Shown here: one piece after another, positions 13,154-20,986 of the stretch | How the letters are laid out: each line of letters begins with the position of its first letter | How positions within the stretch are numbered: the stretch's first letter is position 1 | Assembly: GCF_015244705.1 (NCBI RefSeq) | Contig: NZ_JABCQF010000006.1 | Span: 1-64,000, forward strand | Length of the DNA stretch: 64,000 nt | From: Gluconobacter potus | Lineage (GTDB): Bacteria > Pseudomonadota > Alphaproteobacteria > Acetobacterales > Acetobacteraceae | Direction: 5' to 3' | The notes under the pieces: model-generated | Seen by the model: the letters and a program-made list of their open reading frames with translations, nothing else | Told to the model about the DNA's origin: nothing | The model's database searches: none | Translations under genes and position numbers: made by a program

Positions 13154-14386
13154 TCAGGCAGCGTCCCAGGCAGCGCGGGCAGCATCTACGCCTGCGCCAC
13201 GGTTCAGCTTCACGCCTTCGCCGGCCAGTACGGAATCGAGGGCCGCAAGCGTGAGCAGGACCTTGTCCTTGCGGGCGTTGATGCCCATTGCCCCGATGCG
13301 CCAGATCTTGCCGGTCAGCGGACCGAAGGACGAGACGATCTCGATGCCGAAATCGTCTCGCATAAGCTGGCGGATGCGGGCATTATCCACGCCTTCCGGA
13401 ACCCAGACGCCCGTGACATTGCTCATGCGCGTGGCATCGTCGCCGTAAACCTTCAAACCCATGGCGCGCAGTCCGGCGACCATGGCACGCCCTGCCCGCA
13501 CATGACGGGCAACACGCGCCTCCACACCCTCTTCCACGACCAGACGTGCCGTTTCGCGAGCAGCATAGAGCATGGACGTGGCTTCGGTATGATGGTTCAT
13601 CCGCGCCGGAGACCAGTAATTCATCAGCATCGCCAGGTCGAAATAGTTCGACTGGATGACCGGACCATCGCCCTGGGCCTGACCCGTTGCGATTCCGGCT
13701 TCATCGTGACGGCGCTTGAGGATGGCAGCAACGGCGCGCTCGGACAGCGTGATCGGCGCGGAGCCCGGGGGACCGTTCAGGCACTTCTGAAGACCGGCCG
13801 TGGCGACGTCGATGTTCCAGGCATCGGTCTCGAACGTCATGCCGCCGAGCGTAGCCGTGGCGTCCACATAGAACAGTACATCATGTTTGCGGCAGATGCG
13901 GCCGATCTCTTCGAGCGGCTGGGCCGTCGTGGTGGAGGTATCACCATGGACGCAGGCGACCAGACCGGGCTTGTGCTCGATGATGGCAGCTTCGATGGCG
14001 GCCGGATCGACAACCTGTCCCCAGTCCACATCCACTGTACAAGGGACGCCGCCACAGCGATGGACGATTTCCGTCAGCAGCAGGCCGAAGCGGCCGAAAC
14101 GGGGGATGACGACCTTCATGCCCGGCGAGACCAACGACACCAGCGCGGCCTCAATGGCGGAGCGGGCAGAGCCGTTCACCAGCAGCGTCCAGTGGTTCTT
14201 CGTGCGGAAGACCTCGCGGTACAGGGCCATGACTTCATCCATATAGGCGGTCATTTCCGGGTCCATCTGGCCGATCACGTCATAGGACATGGCGCGAAGA
14301 ATGCGCGGATGGACGTTCGTCGGTCCCGCACCCATCAGCAGACGGGACGGCGGATCGAGTTGGGCGAAAGTCGCAGGGTGGCTCAT
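13154..14386 (-). CDS. hpxJ: (S)-ureidoglycine-glyoxylate aminotransferase
   Basis: A 410-residue class V PLP aminotransferase. The N-terminal pattern (MGAGPTNVHPRILRAMSYDV, then IGQMDP) and FGRFGLLLTEIVHRCGG closely follow the PucG/HpxJ ureidoglycine-glyoxylate transaminases rather than serine-glyoxylate enzymes. The PLP lysine is in LQKCLNGPPG (near residue 200), with the cofactor aspartate in FYVDATATLGG. It would convert ureidoglycine plus glyoxylate to oxalurate plus glycine. It overlaps the allantoate amidohydrolase by 4 bases (ATGA), which supports the ureide role. A generic alanine/serine-glyoxylate transaminase is the alternative. Confidence 0.82.
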   Translation of the reverse strand: MSHPATFAQLDPPSRLLMGAGPTNVHPRILRAMSYDVIGQMDPEMTAYMDEVMALYREVFRTKNHWTLLVNGSARSAIEAALVSLVSPGMKVVIPRFGRFGLLLTEIVHRCGGVPCTVDVDWGQVVDPAAIEAAIIEHKPGLVACVHGDTSTTTAQPLEEIGRICRKHDVLFYVDATATLGGMTFETDAWNIDVATAGLQKCLNGPPGSAPITLSERAVAAILKRRHDEAGIATGQAQGDGPVIQSNYFDLAMLMNYWSPARMNHHTEATSMLYAARETARLVVEEGVEARVARHVRAGRAMVAGLRAMGLKVYGDDATRMSNVTGVWVPEGVDNARIRQLMRDDFGIEIVSSFGPLTGKIWRIGAMGINARKDKVLLTLAALDSVLAGEGVKLNRGAGVDAARAAWDAA

Positions 14387-15618
14387 GACTGGAACTCCTT
14401 GACGAAGGCAAGCAGGGCGCGATGGGCGAGATCGACGTCTCCCACGCGGACGGTTTCATCGGGATGATGGCTCAGGCCGCCGGGGCTGCGGATGAAGAGC
14501 ATTCCCATCGGACACAGATCGACCATGGCCATGGCGTCGTGGCCGGCGCCACTTAGAAGGCGCTGGGCCGGGCGACCTGTAACGCTTGTGACGGCCCGCG
14601 CCAGACCTTCCACCAGTTCAGGCGCACAGGCGGCGGCAGGCAGATGCTGGGGCGTGTCGAACGTGATCCCCAGACCGCGCCGGGCCGCAATGGCACGCAG
14701 ATCCGTGCGGATGGCATCGGCCATGGCATCACGCGCCTCGTTGGTTTCGGCCCGCATGTCGAGCGAGAAGCGGACTTCACCGGGAATAACGTTTGACGTG
14801 TTTGGCGTAACGTCGATCTGACCAACCGTAGCGACCTGCGTCGCGCCGCCTGAGGCGCCATTGCGTTCGACCGCAAGGACCATTTCAGCCGCCGCCGCAA
14901 GAGCATCCTGACGCATACTCATGGGAGTCGTGCCCGCATGGTCGGACTGGCCGGTGACGGTGACACGCTGGCGGGTCTGGGCGGCGATGGCCGTGACGAC
15001 GCCGATTTCGCCATCCGCGTTTTCAATCGCGGGGCCCTGCTCGATATGGGGTTCAATATAGGCAACCAGTTCGTCGGGACGGCGGGCAGCTCCGGTCAGA
15101 CGGGCGGGATCGAGACCGTAGCGGATCATGGCGTCGGCCATGGTTATCCCGGACGCATCCGTCATGTTTTCGGGAATGGACTCGATCAGCCCGGCCATGG
15201 CGCGGGAGCAGATCATGGGAGCCGCAAAACGCGAGCCTTCCTCGTCTCCGAAGCCCATGACCTCAATGGCAAATGGCAGGCGCGTTCCTTCTTCATTCAG
15301 GACAGAAACAAGCTCGATCCCCAGCATGACGCCCAGATTCCCGTCGAAGGCCCCCCCATTGCGGACGGTATCGAGATGGGAGCCGATCATCAGCGCCGGA
15401 GCGCCGGGCGTCAGGCCTTCATAGCGCCCGATCAGGCTCCCGGCCGCGTCCAGACGGGTGGTCAGGCCGGCTTCTTCCATCCACTGCGCGACCTGTGTGA
15501 GGGTACGCTGATAGGCGGGGCCAAGCCAGAAACGGAACAGACTGCCCGGGGTCTCGCTGAATGGAACATCCGCGAGAATACGGCACCGCTCGACGGCGCG
15601 GGCTCCGTGGGCTGTCAT
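14383..15618 (-). CDS. hpxK: allantoate amidohydrolase (M20 family)
   Basis: A 411-residue M20 metallohydrolase of the allantoate amidohydrolase/N-carbamoyl-amino-acid hydrolase group. Metal ligands are visible in GSHLDTVRNGG (His, Asp), FDGNLG (Asp), FGDEEGSRF (Glu pair), and a C-terminal SGAGHDAMAM (His). TGQSDHAGTTPMSMRQDAL marks the dimerisation domain with its substrate-binding His. It would release ammonia and CO2 from allantoate to give ureidoglycine, the substrate of the next gene. The ATG at 15618 has a good AGGAG RBS. N-carbamoyl-amino-acid hydrolysis is the alternative. Confidence 0.83.
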   Translation of the reverse strand: MTAHGARAVERCRILADVPFSETPGSLFRFWLGPAYQRTLTQVAQWMEEAGLTTRLDAAGSLIGRYEGLTPGAPALMIGSHLDTVRNGGAFDGNLGVMLGIELVSVLNEEGTRLPFAIEVMGFGDEEGSRFAAPMICSRAMAGLIESIPENMTDASGITMADAMIRYGLDPARLTGAARRPDELVAYIEPHIEQGPAIENADGEIGVVTAIAAQTRQRVTVTGQSDHAGTTPMSMRQDALAAAAEMVLAVERNGASGGATQVATVGQIDVTPNTSNVIPGEVRFSLDMRAETNEARDAMADAIRTDLRAIAARRGLGITFDTPQHLPAAACAPELVEGLARAVTSVTGRPAQRLLSGAGHDAMAMVDLCPMGMLFIRSPGGLSHHPDETVRVGDVDLAHRALLAFVKEFQS

Positions 15619-15722
15619 GGGGGCTCCTGTCCGGGATGAAGTGTCAAGGCGGGTGGAACTGTGCTCTCATAACGAAGTCAGATCAAGTTGACCTGCCAAT
15701 AAATATGGTCCCACATATCGGG
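15619..15722. promoter_or_regulatory. divergent hpxK / LysR promoter region with inverted repeat
   Basis: The 104-base gap between the leftward hpxKJ operon and the rightward regulator contains the inverted repeat ATATG-N6-CATAT at 15703-15718, close to the regulator's start. LysR regulators normally bind such a divergent region and control both directions, so this is the likely operator. A TTGACC box at about 15688 may be a -35 element. Confidence 0.45.
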
Positions 15723-16607
15723 ATGAAAGATCAGATGCATCTCGACCCGTTCCATCTGCAATCCTTTCTCGCGGTCGCGGAAACGCTGCATTTCACCTCC
15801 GCCGCGCAGAGCCAGGGAGTCAGTCAGTCCACGATCAGCCAGCATGTCAGCCGGCTGGAGGAACAGCTTGGCACGCGCCTTCTGGCCCGGAGCACCAAGA
15901 GCGTCCGGCTGACGGAAGATGGCACGGCGCTGATCGGTCTGGCCCGGCAGCTTCTTCAGTGCGAGGACAGTATCCTGTCCCGTTTCCGGCAGGAGGCCCC
16001 ACGCGGGACGATCCGGCTGGGTGTGACGGAAGACCTGCTTCTGACGCGCTTCCCCGAAATTCTGGGAACATTCCGCGCCTCGCATCCATCACTGCAGATC
16101 ACAATGACGGTCGGTCTGTCAGCATATCTGGCCCGGCTTCTGGATCAGGGAGAGCTGGATGTCTGGTGCGGCATGCGGCGCACGACGGAAACACGTGGCC
16201 AGAAGCTGTGGACCGAGGACATGCGCTGGTACGCACCCACAGGGACGGAATTTCCGGCAGAGCAGTCCATTCCGCTCGTGACATTCCCCGATGGCAGCGT
16301 CACCCGGCGCCTGGCGATCGAGACGCTCAACAAGGCCGGACGCGCCTGGCATCTGGCCTTTACCAGCGGCAGTCTGGGCGCGCTTCTGGCGGCTGTGCGG
16401 GCCGGATATGGTGTGACGCCGCAGCCGGCTTTCCTGCGCAATGCGGAACATCTGCCGCATTGTGCGCCGGGACTGCTGCCGGAAATGCCGCAGGTGGAGT
16501 TCATCGCCTCAACCCGTCATCAGACCGCGCAAGGCCCGGAAGAGCTGCTCATCCGGACGCTATGCGCCCATATTCCACGCCTGCAACCTGACCTCCTGCC
16601 CCTGTAA
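15723..16607 (+). CDS. LysR-family transcriptional regulator of the ureide cluster
   Basis: A 294-residue LysR regulator: N-terminal winged helix (HLQSFLAVAETLHFTSAAQS, then VSQSTISQHVSRLEEQLGTR, RLTEDG) and a substrate-binding C-terminal domain of two lobes (TIRLGVTEDLLLTRFPEIL). The start at ATG 15723 gives a standard N-terminus; ATG 15705 lies inside the palindrome and the frame extends to 15561 without RBS. It is divergent from hpxKJ and 13 bases upstream of hpxW, so it probably senses a ureide intermediate and controls both arms. Confidence 0.85.
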   Translation: MKDQMHLDPFHLQSFLAVAETLHFTSAAQSQGVSQSTISQHVSRLEEQLGTRLLARSTKSVRLTEDGTALIGLARQLLQCEDSILSRFRQEAPRGTIRLGVTEDLLLTRFPEILGTFRASHPSLQITMTVGLSAYLARLLDQGELDVWCGMRRTTETRGQKLWTEDMRWYAPTGTEFPAEQSIPLVTFPDGSVTRRLAIETLNKAGRAWHLAFTSGSLGALLAAVRAGYGVTPQPAFLRNAEHLPHCAPGLLPEMPQVEFIASTRHQTAQGPEELLIRTLCAHIPRLQPDLLPL

Positions 16608-16620
16608 GGACCCCTCCGTC

Positions 16621-18213
16621 ATGCTGACTCCCAATGCCTTAGATGGAATGGTTACGTCTCCGCATCATCTCGCCAGTCAGGCGGGGCTGGATGTTCTGCG
16701 CGAGGGTGGAACGGCGATTGAGGCGGTCGTGGCTACAGCCTCCACGCTGGCAGTGGTTTATCCGCACATGACGGGGCTGGGCGGCGATGCGTTCTGGCTG
16801 ATCTGCTACCCCGATGGACGGACCGTGGCCATCGACGCCTGCGGTGCACTGGCCATGGGAGCGGAACACGCGCTCTATGCCGAGGCCGGACACACCACCA
16901 TCCCCTGGCGCGGCGGTCTGGCCGCCAACACAGTGGCGGGAACGGTCTCAGGCTGGGAAACGGCACTGGAACTGAGCAGCGAGATCCGCGATCCGTTGCC
17001 ACTGGACCGGCTGCTGCGCGATGCCATCCATTATGCCGAACATGGGCGTGTGGTCTCCGAAAGCGAGGGAGCACTTCTGGCGCAGAAACAGCCGGAACTC
17101 ATGTCGGACCCGACGCTGGCGCGGATCTGCTTTCCCGACGGCAAGCCATGGACAGCGGGCAGTATCCGCCAATCGCCCGAACTGGCCCAGACACTGAGAA
17201 TGCTGAACCGGGACGGGTTGCGCAGTTTCTATAACGGGCCGCTGGCGCGCAGTCTGGCCGCTGATCTGGCCGCGGCAGGCAGTCCGGTCCGGTCTCTGGA
17301 TCTTCTCGCGCATCGGGCGGAGGTCAAGGAACCTCTGCATGCGCAGACCAGCGACGGCTTTCTTTATAATACCGCCCCGCCCACACAGGGTGTGGCCTCG
17401 CTTCTGATCCTGGCCCTGTCGGATCATCTGAGCCGTGCGGACGGGCCGGAGAGCTTTGCCCACGTACATGGTCTGGTCGAAGCCACCAAGCAGGCGTTCC
17501 TCTATCGCAACCGCCATACGGATGGCAGCGAACACTCCGAGGCACTGGCCCGGGAACTGCTGGCCGATCCGGCACGGCTGGAAGCGATGGCCTCCCGCAT
17601 TTCCATGACCCACGCCATGCCCTGGACCGAGAAAACGCAATGGGGCGACACGACTTGGATGGGTGCGATCGACCGCAATGGCGTCGCGGTCAGCATGATC
17701 CAGAGCCTCTATTTCGAGTTCGGCTCCGGCGTAATGCTGCCGCAGAGCGGACTGTTCTGGCAAAACCGCGGATCATCCTTCCGTCTGGCCCATTCGGGCT
17801 GGAACATCCTGCGCCCCGGAGCCAAACCGTTTCATACGCTCAACCCCGCTGCGGCCCGGCTGCGGGACGGGCGCACGATGGTCTATGGCACCATGGGCGG
17901 CGAAGGGCAGCCCCAGACACAGGCCGCAATCTTCAGCCGTCACGTCCGTTATGGCGTGCCGCTTCAGGAAGCGCTCTGCCGTCCGCGCTGGCTGCTCGGG
18001 CGCACCTGGGGAGACGAGAGCCTGTCGCTCAAGGTGGAACCGGGATTCAGTCCGAATGTCATGTCGCAGCTTGAGGCGGCCGGGCATACGGTCGAAGCGC
18101 TTCCCGAACAGTCCATCATCATGGGTCACGCAGGCGCGCTGATCCGCCATGAAAACGGACGGCTTGAGGGTGCCACCGATCCCCGCAGTGACGGGGCCGT
18201 TGCCGCGTGGTGA
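16621..18213 (+). CDS. hpxW: oxamate amidohydrolase HpxW (gamma-glutamyltransferase-like Ntn hydrolase)
   Basis: A 530-residue member of the gamma-glutamyltransferase fold, which self-cleaves to expose an N-terminal threonine. The large-subunit start reads VTSPHHLASQAGLDVLREGG and TGLGGDAFWL. The predicted nucleophile is Thr344 in GDTTWMGAIDRNG. There is no signal peptide, unlike true GGT. In Klebsiella, HpxW hydrolyses oxamate to oxalate and ammonia in purine catabolism, and here it sits with hpxJ, hpxK, hpxX and hpxY, so that role is inferred. The ATG at 16621 was chosen by family start. A cytosolic GGT is the alternative. Confidence 0.8.
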   Translation: MLTPNALDGMVTSPHHLASQAGLDVLREGGTAIEAVVATASTLAVVYPHMTGLGGDAFWLICYPDGRTVAIDACGALAMGAEHALYAEAGHTTIPWRGGLAANTVAGTVSGWETALELSSEIRDPLPLDRLLRDAIHYAEHGRVVSESEGALLAQKQPELMSDPTLARICFPDGKPWTAGSIRQSPELAQTLRMLNRDGLRSFYNGPLARSLAADLAAAGSPVRSLDLLAHRAEVKEPLHAQTSDGFLYNTAPPTQGVASLLILALSDHLSRADGPESFAHVHGLVEATKQAFLYRNRHTDGSEHSEALARELLADPARLEAMASRISMTHAMPWTEKTQWGDTTWMGAIDRNGVAVSMIQSLYFEFGSGVMLPQSGLFWQNRGSSFRLAHSGWNILRPGAKPFHTLNPAAARLRDGRTMVYGTMGGEGQPQTQAAIFSRHVRYGVPLQEALCRPRWLLGRTWGDESLSLKVEPGFSPNVMSQLEAAGHTVEALPEQSIIMGHAGALIRHENGRLEGATDPRSDGAVAAW

Positions 18214-19466
18214 GAGCTCTGGCCGGAAACCTGTTCGCACAGGTTGTACTGGCGACGGTGCTCGGGCTTGGGGCCGGACTGTTCTTCCCGGCCCTCGCGG
18301 ATGATGTGGGATGGATGACGGCGCTGTTCATGCGCCTCATCATCATGGCGGTCGGGCCGCTGCTGTTCTGTATCGTAACACTCGGGATCCTCGGGGCCGG
18401 ATCACTGAAAACGGTCGGGCGACTGGGGGGACAGGCCCTGCTCTATTTCGAGATCATGACGACGCTTGCACTTGGCGTAGCGGTTCTGGTGGCGATGGGA
18501 CTTGGGATCGGTCGAGGCGTCGGGTTCGTGCCAACGGCCGAGGATGCGCGGATGATCGCGTCCTATGGCGACCATGCACAGAACCTGCGGGCCGGAGGCA
18601 TCAGCGGATTTCTGCTCTCGCTCGTGCCGCGCACCCCTGCGGAAGCTTTCGCACAGGGGAACGTCCTCCAGATTCTGGTCTTCGCGATTTTTGCCGGGTG
18701 CTGCCTGAGCGGCATGGGGGAGCGCGGCGCGCCTCTGGTCCGGCTGATCGAAAGCGTCTCCGAACTGTTTTCGCGCATGATGGGCGTCATCATCCGCGTG
18801 GCCCCTCTGGGTGTGTTCGGCGCGATGGTGACGACAACGGCGCGCTACGGGCTGGAGACGATCGGGCATCTGGCCGGGTTCACAGCGCTGTATTTCCTGC
18901 TGGTAGGTCTCTTTATCATTGGTGCGCTGGGCGGGGGCCTGCGGCTTGCAGGTGTCAGTCCACTGCGGTTTGCGCGTTATTTTCGCGAAGAACTGCTGAT
19001 CGTCGCCACGACCACGGCATCGGACGCAGTTCTGCCCAGCCTGATGACCAAACTCGAAAAACTCGGGGTGGAACGTCAGGTCGTGGGGATCGTGGTGCCG
19101 GCCGGGTATTCGCTCAATCTGGACGCACTGTCGATCTATCTGGGGATGGCAGTCATCTTTCTGGCCAACGCCACCGGAACGCATCTGACAATCTGGCAGA
19201 TCGCAACCCTTTTGGTGACGGCCCTCGTCACGTCCAAAGGCGCGCACGGGATTCCGGGTTTTGCGATCGTCATTCTGGCGGCAACGCTGGCGAGCGTGCC
19301 GTCCATCCCGCCCGCAAGTCTGGTGATACTTCTGGCCGTAGACTGGTTTGCGGGAATCGCGCGGGCCGTGGGCAATTTCGCAGGAAACTGCGTCGCCCCG
19401 GTTCTGATCGCCGCATGGGAGAAGCGCCTCGACCACACGAAAATGGCCGAGGCGCTGGGACGTTAA
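18207..19466 (+). CDS. dicarboxylate/amino acid:cation symporter (DAACS family)
   Basis: A 419-residue inner-membrane carrier of the DctA/GltP family with about eight helices and two re-entrant hairpins. Landmarks are GAGLFFPAL, FMRLIIMAVGPLLFCIVTLG, the serine-rich hairpin TTTASDAVLPSLMTKLEKLG and VVPAGYSLNLDALSIYLGMA. The start is GTG, overlapping the hpxW stop, so the two are translationally coupled. The family moves C4-dicarboxylates or glutamate. In this setting allantoate, oxalurate or oxamate are candidate substrates (inference). It ends exactly against the convergent hpxY stop. Confidence 0.87.
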   Translation: MVRALAGNLFAQVVLATVLGLGAGLFFPALADDVGWMTALFMRLIIMAVGPLLFCIVTLGILGAGSLKTVGRLGGQALLYFEIMTTLALGVAVLVAMGLGIGRGVGFVPTAEDARMIASYGDHAQNLRAGGISGFLLSLVPRTPAEAFAQGNVLQILVFAIFAGCCLSGMGERGAPLVRLIESVSELFSRMMGVIIRVAPLGVFGAMVTTTARYGLETIGHLAGFTALYFLLVGLFIIGALGGGLRLAGVSPLRFARYFREELLIVATTTASDAVLPSLMTKLEKLGVERQVVGIVVPAGYSLNLDALSIYLGMAVIFLANATGTHLTIWQIATLLVTALVTSKGAHGIPGFAIVILAATLASVPSIPPASLVILLAVDWFAGIARAVGNFAGNCVAPVLIAAWEKRLDHTKMAEALGR

Positions 19467-20801
19467 TCAGATCAGACGGGCTTCCGCCAGTCCGTCCGTT
19501 TCCAGCTTTTCAGCCAGAGCAAAGAGCTGGTCCTCGCGGCCCGGACGCGCGATCAACTGCGCACCGAGCGGCAGCCCCGGAACCTTCATCGGGACCGTCA
19601 GAACCGGGAAGCCCGCAAGGGTCAGGGGCTGCGTATAAAGTCCCAGATTGGCACGGGCAGAGACCATCTTGCCGCCGATTTCGATTTCCGGCTGATCGAA
19701 ACGCGGTGCTTCGCCGACAAGAGCCGGGGCCAGCAGGATGTCCGTCTTCGCAAAAGCCTCGTGCATCCGATCCCGGAACCAGTGCCGCAAGCGATGGGCC
19801 TGAAAGATCAGCGTGGACGGCAGAAGAGCCCCGGCCAGAAGCCGATCTCGGACAGCGGGATCATAGTCTGCGGCCTGTGTGCGCAGGCGTTTGAGATGCT
19901 GCCCCGCCCCTTCGGAGGCGCTGATGACAAACGCCGCAGCCCGCGCCCGCGCCACTTCCGGGAGTTCGACAACATCCGTGGCTCCCAGTGCCATGGAGAG
20001 CGTATCGATCGCGGTCTGCATCGGCGCAGACATGTTCTCGCCGAACCATCCACCCAGACGGGCAATGCGCAGCCTGCCCACATCCACATCCGCCAGCGAT
20101 CTGACGCAGAGAGCTTCAAAACAGGCTTTCAGTCCGCCCGCACTGTCGGCGAACGGGCCGACCGTATCGAGGCTCGGAACGAACGGGTAGCTGCCTTCGA
20201 CCGACAACCGCCCCTGCGTCGCCCGCACCCCCCAGATCCCACAGAGTGAGGCCGGAACACGAATGGAGCCGTTCGTGTCGGACCCGAGACCGATAGAGAA
20301 CATCCGCGCCGCCACACCCGCCGCCGAACCACCCGACGAACCACCGGCCAGACGCTCAGGCGCATGCGGATTGCGGGTATTGCCGTAATGGGCGTTGATC
20401 GTGGCGAACCCGTAGGCAAACTCGTCCATATTCGTCAGCGCAATGGGAATGGCCCCAGCCGCGATCATGTGAGCAACCAGTGTCGCATCCTGCATGGCGG
20501 GCGGGTCATTGGCGAGAACCTTTGACCCGGCCGTCGTGATTTCCCCCCGGACATCAAACAGGTCCTTGATGCCAAAAGGCACCCCGGCAAGCGGCCCCGG
20601 ATCCTGACCTTGCAGCACCAGCCGGTCCACGCGCTCGGCAGCTTCCAGCGCACGATGCATCAGCAGGCGCGTGACGCAGTTATAGTCTTTGTCCCGTGCC
20701 TCGATATCGGCCAAGGTCTTTACGGTCAGGTCGCGGGCGGAAATCTCGCCTTTGCGTACACTGGCCGCAAGCGCGAGGGTACGCTGCTGAAGGCCGCTCA
20801 T
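19467..20801 (-). CDS. hpxY: AtzE/HpxY-family amidohydrolase (amidase signature)
   Basis: A 444-residue amidase-signature enzyme with the full Ser-cisSer-Lys triad: Lys79 in FGIKDLF, Ser156 in GGSSGGSAA and Ser180 in GSDTNGSIR. It resembles the AtzE group (1-carboxybiuret hydrolase), which needs a tiny partner. That partner (hpxX) lies directly upstream with a 4-base overlap. Klebsiella hpxY belongs to the same pair in oxalurate/oxamate metabolism. A plausible reaction is removal of the terminal ureido nitrogen of oxalurate, giving oxamate after decarboxylation (inference). GatA of the tRNA amidotransferase is less likely given the partner and the neighbours. Confidence 0.82.
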   Translation of the reverse strand: MSGLQQRTLALAASVRKGEISARDLTVKTLADIEARDKDYNCVTRLLMHRALEAAERVDRLVLQGQDPGPLAGVPFGIKDLFDVRGEITTAGSKVLANDPPAMQDATLVAHMIAAGAIPIALTNMDEFAYGFATINAHYGNTRNPHAPERLAGGSSGGSAAGVAARMFSIGLGSDTNGSIRVPASLCGIWGVRATQGRLSVEGSYPFVPSLDTVGPFADSAGGLKACFEALCVRSLADVDVGRLRIARLGGWFGENMSAPMQTAIDTLSMALGATDVVELPEVARARAAAFVISASEGAGQHLKRLRTQAADYDPAVRDRLLAGALLPSTLIFQAHRLRHWFRDRMHEAFAKTDILLAPALVGEAPRFDQPEIEIGGKMVSARANLGLYTQPLTLAGFPVLTVPMKVPGLPLGAQLIARPGREDQLFALAEKLETDGLAEARLI

Positions 20802-20986
20802 GGTTCGTACCGGAAGGCAGGTTCGAGGCGATCTGGCAGGTCCAGCCCTTCGATCAGCGCGCCGTAGCTGCGCAAAAGCTCAAGGTTACTCCGCACGCCG
20901 GCATGAAATTCGGCAGGAATGGTCAGGCCATTTGCACGGGCGAGCACCGTAATTTCGGTATCATGGGGGTCTGTCACTATACGCAC
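20798..20986 (-). CDS. hpxX: AtzG/HpxX-like small subunit (DUF4089)
   Basis: A 62-residue protein with the DUF4089 pattern: an amphipathic helix, then LTIPAEFHAGVRSNLELLRS and a C-terminal LPDRLEPAFRYEP (the usual LPDE-EPA-F ending). AtzG, of this family, wraps around the AtzE amidase and is needed for its solubility, as GatC is for GatA. The start is GTG at 20984-20986; a second GTG nine bases downstream is possible. It overlaps hpxY by ATGA. It is easily missed by gene finders. Confidence 0.8.
   Translation of the reverse strand: MRIVTDPHDTEITVLARANGLTIPAEFHAGVRSNLELLRSYGALIEGLDLPDRLEPAFRYEP

Follow-up and report, generated by a model that had tools for sequence, protein, structure and literature searches.

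The first 64,000 bases of contig NZ_JABCQF010000006.1 (contig C6 in the following) from the 3.42-Mb genome of Gluconobacter potus, here called the window, harbor seven genes at positions 13154–20986: hpxJ, hpxK, lysR, hpxW, a DAACS symporter gene, hpxY, and hpxX. The encoded enzymes very probably form the lower half of the oxidative uric acid pathway, which ends in oxalate and would serve as a nitrogen source; we place the probability at roughly 0.88 for the enzyme pathway, a figure that does not extend to the cargo of the symporter. The cluster represents a known pathway in a rearranged form particular to this clade; its most unusual feature is the symporter gene, likewise an addition specific to the clade. 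A preliminary description, made from the bare sequence, had proposed a compact 8-kb seven-gene cluster for a ureide-to-oxalate route. All seven open reading frames were indeed open at these positions and matched the expected families, and the route was supported by homology, by the trees of HpxJ and HpxK, and by an association with the allantoinase gene puuE in other genera. Gene content, gene order, conservation, tree placement, and family membership were observed directly, and from them we infer every reaction, the role of the operator, and all transport.

The genes hpxK (15618–14383, minus strand), encoding an M20 allantoate amidohydrolase, and hpxJ (14386–13154, minus strand), encoding a ureidoglycine–glyoxylate aminotransferase, run leftward and share an ATGA. 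In the opposite direction run lysR (15723–16607, plus strand, refined ATG start at 15723), divergent from hpxKJ; hpxW (16621–18213, plus strand, refined ATG start at 16621), for an oxamate amidohydrolase of the gamma-glutamyltransferase-like N-terminal nucleophile (Ntn) hydrolases; and the DctA-like symporter gene (18207–19466, plus strand). With its GTG start at 18207, the latter has a 7-nt overlap with the end of hpxW; this overlap, pointed out previously, was identical in all 12 loci of the window type. The small-subunit gene hpxX (20986–20798, minus strand) and the amidase gene hpxY (20801–19467, minus strand) share another ATGA and run leftward, facing lysR-hpxW-symporter, with the stops of hpxY and the symporter gene abutting. 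The cluster had been described as two arms around the LysR regulator; lysR does lie between divergent arms, but hpxXY stands outside both and converges on lysR-hpxW-symporter, so that the gene directions call for three transcription units or more.

Among solved structures, HpxJ scored highest with the Klebsiella ureidoglycine aminotransferase 3nnk (491.8 bits), followed by PucG 3isl (407 bits) and, next best, an enzyme of the alanine-glyoxylate aminotransferase (AGT) type (261.9 bits). In the tree, HpxJ clustered with PucG and its Klebsiella counterpart at 100/100, separate from the AGT rows, the branches of PucG and AGT being long. By scores and tree alike, HpxJ groups with the ureidoglycine aminotransferases and not with the AGT/serine-glyoxylate enzymes, one of the two points on which the preliminary description had staked its pathway. 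HpxK matched NF006775 with 600.5 bits (cut-off 479), and, when compared with characterized ureide enzymes, joined Klebsiella HpxK at 97/99, away from AllC, the carbamoylases, and the ErtE-like protein of the same genome; the tree was small and its branches long, very long for E. coli AllC. HpxW matched PF01019 (383.3 bits) and, over both chains, its nearest solved relative, Klebsiella 5hft, named gamma-glutamyltranspeptidase in the PDB, which we take to be HpxW; the cleavage Thr, that of GD|TTW, is conserved and lines up with the first residue of the small chain of 5hft. HpxY belongs to the AtzE family (PRK09201, 601.5 bits, cut-off 461; 6c62, 351 bits) and is the putative catalytic subunit of oxalurate amidohydrolase. 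HpxX matched the AtzG-like PF13318 (29.1 bits, cut-off 24), a model that missed the HpxX of genome G025, recovered by tblastn. The HpxX/HpxY pair of the Klebsiella-type Hpx pathway is therefore present. The catalytic motif positions, claimed earlier to be intact, were located in all four enzymes, including the pyridoxal phosphate (PLP) Lys201 of HpxJ, the M20 metal motifs of HpxK, and Lys79, Ser155, and Ser179 of HpxY; their catalytic roles are presumably those usual in these families. Passages of the literature cite the action of HpxW on oxamate (PMC5270733) and name HpxY an oxalurate amidohydrolase (PMC12625717).

In the proposed route, allantoate made by genes on contig C1 would be cut by HpxK to ureidoglycine, which HpxJ would convert with glyoxylate to oxalurate and glycine. 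From oxalurate, HpxXY would remove the terminal amide in the manner of AtzGE acting on 1-carboxybiuret; HpxZ from contig C7 would probably speed the decarboxylation to oxamate; and HpxW would turn oxamate into oxalate and ammonia. The cluster is not self-contained, as hpxZ lies on C7 and the allantoate-forming genes on C1. There, a flavoprotein gene, puuE, uraD, hiuH, and the permease gene ncs2 follow one another in one orientation, with guaD (guanine deaminase) converging on them. PuuE allantoinase and 5-hydroxyisourate (HIU) hydrolase exceeded curated cut-offs in the window's genome and UraD was identified by homology, so allantoate can probably be made. Our genus counts rest on 26 Gluconobacter genomes, and the family counts on a sample of 299 genomes drawn evenly; some of the 26 are the same contigs as loci fetched in the homology searches (e.g., G012 and L003), and these counts are not additive. 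PuuE and HIU hydrolase were above cut-off in 25 of the 26; the exception, G014, had neither and was likewise devoid of matches to HpxX, HpxZ, and HpxW. AllB-type allantoinase reached its cut-off in none of the 26 genomes, PuuE being the allantoinase instead; the AllB search returned 11 matches in the window's genome, the five full-length ones being ErtD, three dihydroorotase-like proteins, and one dihydropyrimidinase. ErtD and ErtE, hydrolases of ergothioneine utilization, are encoded together on contig C9 (L063:4859–7860; 741 and 569 bits, both above curated cut-offs). A TIGR03212 match in L066 (60.7 bits against a cut-off of 424.6) was rejected as PuuE and is a polysaccharide deacetylase-type protein.

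The genome search for uricase and allantoinase foreseen in the preliminary description thus succeeded for the allantoinase and its companions; cofactor-free uricase (PF01014) was found in none of the 26 Gluconobacter genomes, and the flavoprotein stands in its place. This Pyr_redox/Lys-Orn oxygenase-like protein (L101:7642–9078 on contig C1; L103:2385–3845) is encoded next to puuE or hpxX in urate loci, and in 16 of 20 regions outside the genus its gene and hpxX are 21–213 bases apart. The protein gave no match to the NCBIfam uricase models at E 1e-5 and is only a candidate for the uricase where the PF01014 enzyme is missing. Passages of PMC4562309 list four known types of urate oxidase and mention twelve species that have UraH and UraD yet none of the four. 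Since the PF01014 search found none, the uricase reported elsewhere in the literature may be of another type, such as the flavoprotein. Together, these genes give Gluconobacter, which a passage of PMC8358223 describes as prevalent in the fly gut, an almost complete set for a conversion of urate to oxalate that is open to testing.

A search with the symporter yielded 56 loci, of which 12 (L003–L013 and L027), all from Gluconobacter, contain the window's seven genes in the same order and the other 44 lack the full set; given this recurrence, the arrangement is not due to chance. The closest among the fetched loci, from Gluconobacter oxydans NBRC 14819 (L003), is 97–99% identical over the seven proteins. 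Four layouts were discerned within the genus. In the first (G003, G019, G021, and G023), hpxY-X-Z and hpxK-J-puuE-hpxW share one contig, with puuE between hpxJ and hpxW. The second (G006, G007, and G022, as well as G025 with extra DNA between hpxY and hpxW) comprises hpxZ-X-Y, hpxW-lysR, and hpxK-J without a symporter, and the third (G011) adds to it the symporter and a broken gene for an oxalate/formate (OFA) antiporter. The fourth is the window type, having the symporter and lacking hpxZ, and G001 represents it minus the symporter. The genus thus offers an example of one pathway cut up and rejoined. Outside Gluconobacter, 20 HpxW-centered regions were chosen from 35 matches, three of them (L142, L143, and L151) ending at contig ends. 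The hpxX-hpxY pair and puuE each occurred in 17 of these and coincided in 16; uraD with hiuH was found in 16, hpxK in 14 (a distant partial match in L159), hpxJ in 12, an OFA gene in one, and the symporter and hpxZ in none.

HpxZ, encoded on contig C7 (NF033625, 158.3 bits, cut-off 135), would by analogy act after HpxXY, given that passages of PMC6219798 tentatively attribute decarboxylation of the AtzE product to AtzH. An AtzH-like protein was present in 25 of the 26 Gluconobacter genomes; hpxZ and hpxX were on separate contigs in 14 and side by side in 10 as well as, by tblastn, in G025, neither gene being found in G014. Several observations weigh against the uric acid pathway. Of the 41 genomes with HpxW in the family sample, only 34 also encoded an AtzH-like protein (183 of 299 overall), so that HpxZ may be helpful rather than required and is perhaps dispensable. 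Five of the 20 other-genus regions (L156–L160) have hpxX-Y-W, puuE, uraD, and hiuH but no hpxJ, implying that ureidoglycine is handled elsewhere or otherwise there. No curated uricase was identified. Among solved structures, HpxK scored best with an L-carbamoylase (306 bits) and lower with E. coli AllC (188 bits), and the HpxK label rests on the curated model, the small long-branched tree, and context. This kinship with an L-N-carbamoylase would also suit a different account, in which the hpx labels are misnomers for a transaminase and amidases engaged in nitrogen metabolism of some other kind (e.g., of N-carbamoyl amino acids or of an amide resembling cyanurate or biuret), as would the ErtD/ErtE pair from the same superfamilies in this genome and the use of 1-carboxybiuret by AtzE-family amidases noted in a passage of PMC6219798. 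Such a route is nevertheless highly improbable in view of the occurrence of hpxX-Y-W with puuE in 16 of the 20 other-genus regions, the joint absence of PuuE, HIU hydrolase, HpxX, HpxZ, and HpxW in G014, and the placement of HpxJ and HpxK with the Klebsiella Hpx enzymes in the trees.

The symporter matched PF00375 (331.6 bits) and is 40% identical to the C4-dicarboxylate/orotate symporter DctA of E. coli, a member of the same DAACS family. It carries NLDAL in place of the NLDGT of E. coli DctA, which we take to be family-defining, as well as SKGAHG for SKGAAG and a different motif in transmembrane helix 8. Its best NCBIfam models are those of DctA, and it stayed below their cut-offs (464.6 against 570 and 420.2 against 513 bits). 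Across 65 readings of the motif, NLDAL occurred 34 times, NLDGS 18, NLDGT 10 (including E. coli DctA), NLDAF twice, and NPDGQ once; the 34 NLDAL readings, which comprise the whole close group, come from 29 different sites, every one of them in acetic acid bacteria. In the 26 Gluconobacter genomes, the symporter gene adjoins hpx genes in 14 and lies elsewhere in seven (57–71% identical), and five have no such homologue, among them G003, G019, and G023 with matches of only 33%. In the family sample, 22 of the 31 genomes with the symporter (E 1e-110) also had HpxW, as did 17 of 17 for the closest symporters, compared with 41 of 299 overall; these proportions are confounded by kinship.

That the symporter imports an oxalurate-type acid, as suggested at the outset, is plausible, with some evidence against it. 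It may carry a small acid of the pathway, and we tentatively entertain, at a probability of about one in three, that the NLDAL-type DAACS proteins form a subfamily of ureide-acid symporters (for oxalurate, ureidoglycolate, oxamate, or allantoate) feeding purine-breakdown acids from hosts or neighbors to the Hpx enzymes. The findings point to a transporter subfamily with an altered motif. It is quite possible, if short of probable, that the protein is an ordinary C4-dicarboxylate (succinate/malate) carrier which came to lie beside hpxW by rearrangement and is unrelated to ureides. The DctA models as best matches agree with an ordinary carrier, as do the cluster of G001, a close relative with a window-type cluster and no symporter, and the absence of the symporter from the 20 other-genus hpx regions. 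The same may be said of the close-group loci outside the window type, 10 of 14 of which carry genes for a TonB receptor as well as an AllD-like dehydrogenase in the fetched stretch; only Acetobacter orientalis among these ten has adjacent hpx genes, barring distant HpxW-like matches (28–29%) in three Asaia loci. Speaking against it are the hpxW overlap preserved in all 12 window-type loci, NLDAL for NLDGT in all 34 close-group readings, and the annotation of E. coli DctA for orotate besides C4-dicarboxylates. The same holds for A. orientalis, in which a run of TonB receptor, symporter, AllD-like dehydrogenase, and hpxZ genes with small gaps lies ∼4 kb from hpxKJXY; an OFA gene, hpxK, hpxJ, hpxX, and hpxY are on the same contig, and no HpxW was found within that 21 kb.

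Export of the end product oxalate, by the symporter or by the OFA antiporter encoded beside it in a relative, is unlikely. An OFA gene does lie between the symporter gene and hpxY in G011 (L080:11694–12838, in two pieces with at least one stop), another above cut-off is found beside hpxK in A. orientalis, and two Paraburkholderia plasmid records have an annotated oxlT after an HpxW-like gene. Yet no OFA gene exceeded the cut-off in the window's genome (best 42.9 against 335 bits), and DAACS carriers are normally uptake symporters. In the literature searched, whose scope left out most subscription papers, no title or abstract combined this symporter with hpx genes, and none described a bacterial DctA-type importer of oxalurate or allantoate. 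A recurring module of acetic acid bacteria consists of a TonB receptor, the NLDAL-type symporter, an AllD-like dehydrogenase, and often a GntR regulator (L015, L017, L019–L026, and L115). Near the symporter gene of G. thailandicus and G. frateurii lie two further genes: one, ∼2 kb away, exceeded the cut-off for 8-oxoguanine deaminase in G. thailandicus, and the other, resembling guanine deaminase, fell slightly short of its cut-off.

The LysR-type regulator (PF00126 and PF03466) probably acts at a conserved candidate operator between the divergent arms. The 104-base gap between hpxK and lysR holds CAGATCAAGTTGACC (15679–15693), which contains the inverted repeat TCAA-G-TTGA and was identical in 18 of 18 aligned promoters from Gluconobacter, all close kin, including layouts without the symporter. 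The repeat TCAANTTGA occurred once in the window, and with three mismatches allowed, the number of matches was not above chance. The motif was not seen upstream of hpxX, and a shared operator at the C1 urate locus or at hpxZ on C7 was ruled out, with no matches at either.

Compared with the Klebsiella hpxKJ/hpxWXYZ cluster (L163), identities were 57% for HpxJ, 54% for HpxW, 45% for HpxK, 44% for HpxY, and 49% for the orphan HpxZ of the window's genome, and the hpxKJ and hpxW arms are divergent in both. Unlike Klebsiella, in which hpxZ follows hpxY and permease-like open reading frames lie between the arms, the window has a DAACS gene after hpxW, an inverted hpxXY, and hpxZ on another contig. 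Passages of PMC6219798 describe enterobacterial ggt-atzG-atzE-atzH clusters with LysR, an ATP-binding cassette (ABC) transporter, a transaminase, and allantoate amidohydrolase, the ABC transporter and regulator being on the hpxKJ side, in contrast to the window. The uric acid degradation locus of Acetobacteraceae, so named in a passage of PMC8358223, belongs to the same bacterial family and pathway, whereas the genome studied here splits it into a C1 part, a C6 part, and the orphan hpxZ on C7, with a DAACS gene added. HpxX, HpxY, and HpxZ fall in the same three families as AtzG, AtzE, and AtzH of cyanuric acid catabolism, but neither AtzD nor AtzF is among the window's seven genes, and the predicted substrate is oxalurate.

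An HpxW-like gene was found in 115 records, from which nine plasmid regions were chosen. The gene adjoins genes for tripartite ATP-independent periplasmic (TRAP) transporters in two (L164 and L167, from Thioclava and a Rhodobacteraceae plasmid, directly after the TRAP genes), oxlT in two, and ABC transporter genes in another two, the remaining three being arranged differently; the Klebsiella region is the only one also having hpxJ, hpxK, and hpxZ. This hints at a recurrent pairing with small-acid transporters and is not evidence of cargo. In G021, hpxW is split over two reading frames (L081:14672–16257), and the remaining urate cluster looks whole. Downstream of hpxJ, a D-2-hydroxyacid dehydrogenase gene (PF02826; 11861–12850) is present in all 12 window-type loci and absent from the G001 stretch; a link to glyoxylate would be only a guess.

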